Shown here: positions 7,492-11,013 of the stretch, in pieces
How positions within the stretch are numbered: the first letter of the stretch is position 1
Layout of the letters: each line of letters begins with the position of its first letter
Virus record (IMG/VR): IMGVR_UViG_3300002460_000032
Coordinates: 1-43,049 of that record
Source of the DNA: a virus
Reading direction: 5' to 3' (one strand)
DNA: 43,049 bases
Program-made: the position numbers and the translations under genes
Notes under the pieces: model-generated
What the model was told of the DNA's origin: nothing
The model's input: only the letters and a program-made list of their open reading frames with translations
The model's database searches: none

Positions 7492-7513
7492 TAAATGCAG
7501 AATCTTATAATCT

Positions 7514-7587
7514 ACCCCTGTAACTCAGTCGGAAAGAGTATTCGCCCTCTAAGCGAAAGGTCGATGGTTCAATCCCATCCAGGGGTT
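7514..7587 (+). tRNA. tRNA-Arg (anticodon UCU)
   Basis: A complete cloverleaf: acceptor ACCCCTG/CAGGGGT (7 bp), D stem ACTC/GAGT with loop AGTCGGAAA, anticodon stem TTCGC/GCGAA with loop CCTCTAA, and T stem GATGG/CCATC with loop TTCAATC. The anticodon at 7548-7550 is TCT, which reads AGA, a codon used often in these AT-rich genes. No CCA is encoded. Position 33 is C where U is almost universal, so function or unusual decoding may be affected. Confidence 0.85.
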
Positions 7588-7588
7588 C

Positions 7589-9699: not shown

Positions 9700-10149
9700 A
9701 TGTATGATAGTACAGAAGATACCGAAAAACATATAGAGACAGTTCAATTATATTTGCGTCGTGTTAGAGTAGAAATTGATAGAGTATCTAAGAGACATGA
9801 TGCCAGCAAACTAAAACCTCCTGAAAAAGAATTATATGATGAATACACCCCAAAACTTTCTTCTGTTGTTTATGGAAGCGATGAATATAAACAATATCTG
9901 GCAGAAATGGGAGAAGTACTACAACATCATTATAAAGTAAATCGGCATCATCCAGAGCATTTCGAGAATGGGATAAATGGGATGACGTTGGTAGACTTGG
10001 TAGAGATGTTATGTGATTGGAAAGCGGCGACGTTGAGGATGAAAGATGGAGATTTTCAAAAGAGTTTAGAATATAACAAAGCAAGATTTCAGATAGGCGA
10101 CCAACTTCTTCAAATTCTAAAGAATACTGCTGAATATTTTGGCTGGTAA
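9700..10149 (+). CDS. DUF5662-like protein
   Basis: A 149-residue protein with conserved features of the DUF5662 family found in phages and bacteria: HIETVQLYLRRV near the start, RHDASKLKPPEKE, YGSDEYKQYLAEM, HHYKVNRHHPEHFENGI, VDLVEMLCDWKAA and YNKARFQIGDQLLQILKNT. The spaced His/Asp residues (H34-D35, HH..NRHHPEH, D-W) look like a metal site on a helical scaffold, reminiscent of HD-type hydrolases, though activity is unproven. The ribosome site is TGAGGAGAAATAAG. It is the last gene before the RNA unit. Confidence 0.75.
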   Translation: MYDSTEDTEKHIETVQLYLRRVRVEIDRVSKRHDASKLKPPEKELYDEYTPKLSSVVYGSDEYKQYLAEMGEVLQHHYKVNRHHPEHFENGINGMTLVDLVEMLCDWKAATLRMKDGDFQKSLEYNKARFQIGDQLLQILKNTAEYFGW

Positions 10150-10154
10150 GGTAG

Positions 10155-10160
10155 TATAAT
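10155..10160 (+). promoter_or_regulatory. -10 element upstream of the structured RNA
   Basis: A perfect TATAAT lies 7 bases before the first closing-stem base of the RNA at 10167. No good -35 is present at the usual spacing, so the promoter is only moderately supported. Confidence 0.45.
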
Positions 10161-10166
10161 TTATAA

Positions 10167-10292
10167 GAGAGTGCAGCGAGGGGCGCACGTCACTCAGGCG
10201 TTTGATCTCTGGACATATTAGAGCCAGAGCTAAGGCGAGGAAGGCCATTGGTCGTAATTTCATCGCACAGCGTAGCGATCCTGACCACTCTC
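10167..10292 (+). ncRNA. Structured noncoding RNA, unknown class
   Basis: About 126 nt closed by GAGAGTG (10167-10173) pairing with CACTCTC (10286-10292). Internal hairpins include CTCTGG/CCAGAG (10207-10212 with 10224-10229) and ATCGC/GCGAT (10262-10266 with 10275-10279). The region is clearly richer in G and C than its surroundings, has no credible open frame, follows a TATAAT and is followed at once by a rho-independent terminator. This is the layout of a free-standing small RNA. It does not look like tRNA, tmRNA or an intron. Confidence 0.6.
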
Positions 10293-10302
10293 AAAAGCAA
10301 GA

Positions 10303-10340
10303 CTACTCTAATCTCCAGTCCAGTTAGAGTAGTTTTGTTT
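10303..10340 (+). terminator. Rho-independent terminator of the structured RNA
   Basis: CTACTCTAA (10303-10311) pairs perfectly with TTAGAGTAG (10324-10332), 12-nt loop, followed by TTTTGTTT. It defines the 3' end of the preceding RNA unit. Confidence 0.8.
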
Positions 10341-10421: not shown

Positions 10422-10769
10422 ATGAAGATAACTAAAGCATACAAACTAATAGAGAAATCGGTAAAGTTCTATATACAGCAGAACTATGAATTCTCTGCAA
10501 ACACGTATGAAACAAAAACGTATCAAACCAAGGAAACAAAAAGGATATATGAGAAGAGGGAGGAACTAAAAGAAGCATTAGAGATAATGCAACAACTTTC
10601 AAAGTTGGTTGAGGAAGTCATAAATTCTCCGATAGAGATGCAAGAGATAATGAGAAAGAATAATCTGAAGATAGACAATTTAGATGATTCAATGCAAAAA
10701 CTAGCGTTTACATTTTATACAAGGATAGTTAGTTTGAGTAGTAAAGCGGAACATATATTAGAAGATTAG
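10422..10769 (+). CDS. Unknown helical protein
   Basis: A 115-residue basic, helix-rich protein with AAAGGAGAAAAAC as ribosome site. KRIYEKREELKEALEIMQQL and SPIEMQEIMRKNNLKIDNL suggest coiled coil or a small helical bundle. It stands between a terminator and a convergent minus-strand unit, and its leader carries the inverted repeat described above, so it is probably separately regulated. Function unknown. Confidence 0.7.
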   Translation: MKITKAYKLIEKSVKFYIQQNYEFSANTYETKTYQTKETKRIYEKREELKEALEIMQQLSKLVEEVINSPIEMQEIMRKNNLKIDNLDDSMQKLAFTFYTRIVSLSSKAEHILED

Positions 10770-11013
10770 ATAAATAATATATGTATATGATAATCTATAT
10801 CTAATTCAACTTTTAGCCAAAAATAAAATCCGACTTTTCTCCAAAAATAAAATTATAATTAAATACACTCGTGCGTACCTTTTCGATATCGGAATTCGTT
10901 CGCTAACCTCTAACGCCATCCCAGCTACCAGAGCTGGGGCGCACATAAATAAAAATCGCTCCCTTATCAGGGGAGCGATTAACCTTATTAGGTTATGCTA
11001 TGAGATTAGATGT
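10770..11013. other. Convergent intergenic region
   Basis: The gap contains an AT-rich stretch, then a more GC-rich fold: GTGCGTACC (10871-10879) can pair with GGGGCGCAC (10936-10944) with one mismatch, and alternatively CCCAGCT (10920-10926) pairs with AGCTGGG (10932-10938). GGGGCGCAC also occurs in the structured RNA at 10180-10188. A minus-strand terminator follows at 10943-10980. Confidence 0.45.
10943..10980 (-). terminator. Terminator of the minus-strand two-gene unit
   Basis: AATCGCTCCC (10954-10963) pairs with GGGAGCGATT (10971-10980), 10 bp with a 7-nt loop. On the minus strand the hairpin is followed by TTTTTATTTAT, as for a rho-independent terminator. Confidence 0.85.

Follow-up and report, generated by a model that had tools for sequence, protein, structure and literature searches.

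The window, a stretch of 43,049 nucleotides of IMG/VR virus record IMGVR_UViG_3300002460_000032, comes from a tailed phage whose record carries genes for a terminase, a portal, a tape measure, a family A polymerase and a UvsX-like recombinase. Its portal was compared with 50,697 phage records, the best match having 24% identity across one third of the protein, and the phage is, judged by its sequence, distant from all sequenced isolates. A noncoding segment with a promoter-like element, a folded body and a terminator lies between a DUF5662 gene and the gene for a 115-aa protein. The features of this locus, together with the sole tRNA gene found in the record, are the following.

7514-7588: tRNA-Arg (TCT), 2.6 kb from the RNA
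9700-10149 (+): upstream gene, DUF5662 (PF18907, E 7.6e-34), ending in a stop codon 17 nt upstream of the RNA
10155-10160 (+): likely -10 element TATAAT, which would set +1 at G10167
10167-10292 (+): predicted RNA gene body of 126 nt, both strands of the closing stem included, supported by fold, G+C maximum and a counterpart in the related phage L180
10167-10173 (+): closing stem P1, 5' strand GAGAGTG (GCGAATG in L180)
10187-10201 (+): predicted hairpin, pair probability about 0.6
10207-10229 (+): predicted hairpin CUCUGG/CCAGAG, pair probability 0.6-0.9
10235-10266 (+): predicted irregular hairpin GCGA..GGCC/GGUC..UCGC, its two helices at 0.85-0.89
10286-10292 (+): closing stem P1, 3' strand CACTCTC (CATTCGC in L180)
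about 10297-10339 (+): Rho-independent terminator
10422-10769 (+): downstream gene, 115 aa, no known family, with a Shine-Dalgarno sequence

The sequence-only reading of this DNA had described a TATAAT followed by an RNA closed by a perfect 7-bp stem and then by a textbook terminator, with no open frame across it, and all of these elements were recovered. The two strands of P1 are complementary at 7/7 positions with predicted pair probabilities of 0.96-1.00, and six bases separate TATAAT from GAGAGTG. The terminator is strong (-19.3 kcal/mol, z -6.5, 0/200 shuffles); its 3' arm continues into TTTTGTTTATAT, and TTTATAT follows the hairpin. No credible gene lies over the RNA, the only overlapping frames being one of 41 aa with a TTG start (+) and one of 48 aa (-). 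The internal hairpins of that reading are predicted as well, at pair probabilities of 0.6-0.9, but the comparison with L180 gives no support to any of the three. Outside the RNA, we observed that a TATAAT also ends two bases upstream of the tRNA-Arg (region 7506-7588), which does not encode its CCA, that past the 115-aa gene a 24-nt A+T-rich unit occurs twice in tandem (10803-10850, 83% alike), and that two words of the RNA, CCAGAGCTNNGGCG and GGGGCGCAC, recur next to each other 700 bases downstream, in a noncoding stretch rich in G+C (10224-10237/10928-10941 and 10180-10188/10936-10944).

Some of these features are readily obtained by chance. A 7-bp stem spanning at least 50 nt was present in 27% of the dinucleotide shuffles of 10161-10340, and the RNA without its terminator folds only slightly better than shuffled sequence (z -1.57, 13/200 shuffles), so that the z of -4.3 for the whole including the terminator is mostly the terminator's. 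The closing stem and the fold by themselves are thus weak evidence for an RNA gene. RNA genes are often conspicuous by high G+C in A+T-rich genomes, and here 10167-10292 has a G+C of 0.556 against 0.372, the top of the 59,595 126-nt windows of the 59.7-kb genome. This maximum is the strongest signal from this genome alone; the earlier reading had called the RNA GC-richer, which it is, without having the maximum.

With regard to known classes, Rfam 15 provided no family at its gathering threshold and nothing above noise even at E <= 10, the best score at the RNA being 18.8 bits vs a threshold of 63, on the opposite strand. The covariance-model search that had been proposed for this RNA therefore matched no family, in keeping with its description as a free-standing structured RNA of unknown class. 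A type III toxin-antitoxin RNA was considered and rejected, as there are no tandem repeats in 10167-10292 and the downstream gene matches no family.

IMG/VR yielded two large relatives of the phage, G001 (terminase 53% identical) and L180 (terminase 54% identical), as well as three partial ones; no relatives were found via the downstream 115-aa protein, the DNA polymerase, or the terminase in bacterial genomes. A covariance model built from the window RNA alone was used, with no filters applied, to search L180 together with the partial relatives, 44.6 kb in all, and its best match was L180:5876-5755 (-), at 14.3 bits and an E of 0.069 over those 44.6 kb, which is weak by itself and as a score alone insufficient. 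The same model found no match in G001 and no RNA copy beside DUF5662 at 80 other viral loci. Matches of 14-mers in viral contigs were dismissed as chance, the similarity not extending beyond them. The refined match in L180 is

L180:5871-5760 (-): counterpart of the window RNA, 112 nt, hereafter V1

and it is the surroundings and the stem of V1, more than the score, that tie the two RNAs together. The position and orientation of V1 relative to the terminase match those of the window RNA (4.1 kb upstream vs 5.1 kb in the window). The eleven bases of the -10 region, TATAATTTATA, which occur once in the window on both strands taken together, are identical in L180 (L180:5883, -) at equal spacing, so that the predicted +1 coincides with the first base of P1 in each phage. 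The first 27 nt of the RNA are identical at 22/27 positions, and P1 of V1 is paired at 7/7 positions with two compensatory double changes, one from A-U to C-G and one from G-C to A-U. Among 3.84 million positions of the fetched loci, a start matching at 17/27 positions or more together with a perfect P1 partner is found at the window and L180 sites only. As a control, public bacterial genomes were scanned for the exact pattern TATAATTTATA-N8-C[AG]G[CT]G[AT]GG, and a P1 partner accompanied 0/7 of the sites there vs 2/2 in the phages. The only site from a viral scan, in L186, came from a variant pattern with a 7-N spacer, which is unable to match L180, and was put down to chance. The G+C of V1 is likewise near the maximum of its locus, being reached by 2/21,371 windows. 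The gene close upstream of V1 on the same strand differs from the DUF5662 gene of the window; as such, it is the RNA that is conserved rather than its neighbourhood.

The likeness has clear bounds. No terminator follows V1 in L180, and simultaneous folding and alignment detects no conservation between the interiors of the window RNA and V1 (z 0.2, 91/200 shuffles). The comparison with related phages that the sequence-only reading had called for thus yielded compensatory changes in P1 of L180, while the interiors could not be aligned and G001 gave no match. For a free-standing RNA gene, then, a terminator and a conserved -10 element are present and the neighbours differ in L180; the -35 box is absent, and the family numbers two members found, the window RNA and V1. 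Taken together, with the -10 element, its spacing and a compensated stem kept in L180, the window RNA is probably a real free-standing phage RNA gene, as predicted from its sequence.

The absence of a -35 box (a consensus promoter scan placed none on the + strand at the RNA) raises the possibility of a 3'-UTR element, the tail of a DUF5662 operon mRNA that ends at the terminator, which would protect that mRNA or yield a 3'-UTR-derived small RNA and would leave TATAAT as a chance occurrence. TATAAT is indeed common, with about 39 copies on the + strand of the window, the DUF5662 stop codon lies on the same strand just upstream, and V1 likewise sits close behind a same-strand gene in L180. However, it is the eleven-base TATAATTTATA, unique in the window on both strands, that is identical in the two phages and makes the stem begin at +1 in each, despite the different upstream genes, and V1 has no terminator behind it. 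We consider the 3'-UTR explanation doubtful, although it deserves to be kept in mind.

The order of folded domain, terminator and gene with a Shine-Dalgarno sequence could also be that of a riboswitch-like attenuator controlling the downstream gene (10422, 115 aa), in which a ligand-bound domain would control formation of the terminator, and the seven bases ATTAGAG (10218-10224) could pair with the 5' arm of the terminator. The two domains, however, fold independently, the fold of the body is unchanged with the 3' arm blocked, and no stem of comparable length competes with that of the terminator. Furthermore, a conserved attenuator is unlikely because L180 keeps the RNA with no terminator behind its copy, and overall we regard this arrangement as highly improbable.

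The sequence-only reading had itself suggested a small regulatory RNA. Like Rho-independent bacterial small RNAs, the window RNA has a promoter-like -10 element, a compact body and a strong, U-rich terminator, which is the usual layout of base-pairing (antisense) regulators. It is unlike most base-pairing RNAs in that the ends of its body are paired with each other in the closing stem, and no target was found: within the phage's own genome, perfect complementarity extends over 10 nt at most, which is chance level. With no extended complementarity in that genome, and with a counterpart that points to a stable RNA of a tRNA cluster, the suggestion was not substantiated, and an antisense role is very unlikely.

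V1 carries near its 3' end a T-arm, GUG-UUCGAAU-CAC, two bases before the 3' strand of P1, which was equalled by 3/60,000 shuffles of the interior, and it is part of a tRNA/ncRNA cluster, a tRNA (Rfam, 29.4 bits) lying about 145 nt beyond it. The T-arm is absent from the window RNA. Both RNAs have in common with tRNA (RF00005) a closing stem of 7 bp, to which V1 adds the T-arm with UUCGAAU; both are unlike tRNA in having no cloverleaf, no fitting anticodon arm and a length of 112-126 nt, and ARAGORN and Rfam detected no tRNA above noise at either. V1 resembles tmRNA (RF00023 and relatives) in its acceptor-like ends, its T-arm and an insert replacing the anticodon arm. It differs in that there is no G-U at the third pair, no recognised tag frame and no Rfam match, and ARAGORN -m, even with the threshold at 60%, reported no tmRNA in either V1 or the window RNA.

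Given a tRNA-like 3' half in V1 and the irregular anticodon arm of the adjoining tRNA, one could suppose that the RNA is a decayed or remodelled tRNA gene, functionless now and carried along in a tRNA region; the missing T-arm of the window RNA and the freedom of the interiors to diverge would fit such decay. In contrast, P1 is paired at 7/7 positions in both phages through two compensatory double changes, and the window copy keeps its -10 element and has a terminator of its own, so we find a decayed tRNA unlikely. The tRNA in question lies at L180:5613-5538 (-), after V1 and a further folded segment.

Stable RNAs of phage T4 other than tRNAs have been known since the 1970s. One of them, species 1 RNA (RNA C, rnaC), lies at L191:909-1047 (-), or 70908-71046 of the T4 record, and matches no Rfam family. 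RNA C and species 2 RNA (RNA D) are stable, are encoded in the T4 tRNA cluster and have no known function (PMC3014915, PMC9697503). Both are like the window RNA in being phage-encoded, outside known genes and of similar size (119-139 nt). Covariation in RNA C is well supported over eight Tevenvirinae phages, the T-stem and the closing stem covarying, and its parts follow in the order of short acceptor-like closing stem, adjacent long hairpin, second hairpin and T-arm set against the 3' strand. V1 has the same order of parts, and simultaneous folding and alignment of V1 with RNA C gave a z of 3.3 (0/100 shuffles). A covariance model of RNA C (built from 8 Tevenvirinae sequences, with 45 pairs and more covariation than in any of 500 shuffles) found no match at 10167-10292 or L180:5760-5871.

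V1 is thus like RNA C in architecture rather than by demonstrated descent, and the window RNA is tied to that kind via V1 only. Direct folding and alignment of the window RNA with RNA C gave a z of -0.5, and RNA D was rejected as a match to it (z 0.1). The window RNA is moreover unlike RNA C in having no T-arm, a perfect 7-bp stem, a -10 element and terminator of its own, and a place outside a tRNA cluster. We do not assign it to RNA C, because the T-arm is absent and the RNA C model finds no match. The window RNA belongs to no described family, and it fits best alongside the stable RNAs that phages encode in tRNA clusters, since V1 has a T-arm set against its stem and sits in a tRNA/ncRNA cluster.

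As for how the RNA might work, transcription would start at G10167 from TATAAT and stop at the terminator near 10338, giving a transcript of about 172 nt that may be trimmed to the 126-nt body. Its 5' and 3' ends would pair in a stem with the length of a tRNA acceptor stem, presumably making a stable RNA. The family would then belong with T4 RNA C and RNA D and work in trans through its fold. We see about even chances that this reading as a whole, a separate RNA gene of the phage whose product acts in trans by way of its fold, is right. Binding of a protein through the ends or the overall fold is favoured over antisense pairing because perfect complementarity to the phage genome reaches 10 nt at most, an attenuator is unlikely and the interior is free to vary. 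By analogy, the tRNA-like end of V1 points to proteins that handle tRNA ends, and this is the weakest step. The likeliest mode, a guess from architecture only, would be to occupy a maturation enzyme, a modification enzyme or a tRNA-cutting defence; that the RNA occupies a protein handling tRNA-like ends strikes us as rather unlikely.

A bolder proposal is that the window RNA and V1 belong to a fast-evolving family of phage RNAs that mimic tRNAs, are of the same kind as T4 RNA C and occupy host proteins which act on the ends of tRNAs, such as tRNA-cutting defence nucleases. We rate it a long shot; if true, the T4 stable RNAs, which are still without an assigned role (PMC3014915, PMC9697503), would gain a testable one. 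Free-standing RNAs in another, unrelated group of phages, with the tRNA-like architecture of RNA C in one case, would suggest a recurring phage device and would offer a second system for finding what such RNAs bind.

Other folded elements were seen in the two large relatives. One of them, roughly 330 nt of noncoding sequence at L176:1672-2000 (+) in G001, folds strongly (z -3.4) and contains a 14-bp stem (GCATCCTGCTTGTA/TACAAGCAGGATGC), with no Rfam match. An element at L176:9361-9536 (+) of the same phage is closed by TTGGTAGG/CCTACCAA, with the T-arm-like hairpin TCGGGTGCAAACTCCCGA preceding the 3' strand, and also contains a 33-aa frame, MNTQRLEGARDKRIRTWLMDEHYQLIQDGLASD. A tmRNA at L176:9362-9533 was rejected, as ARAGORN called it only at the 60% threshold, 12/1,000 shuffles gave a non-permuted one, and the supposed tag is part of the 33-aa frame. 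In L180, a second folded noncoding segment, L180:5736-5616 (-), comes directly after V1 and is preceded by a similar start, AATTTATA. Its folding and alignment with the window RNA gave a z of 2.6 (1/200 shuffles), rank 5 of 3,294 windows, which is suggestive of a closer counterpart of the window RNA than V1, although we do not claim it as such. Near its 3' end, this segment has GCGATC(C)TGACC in common with the window RNA.
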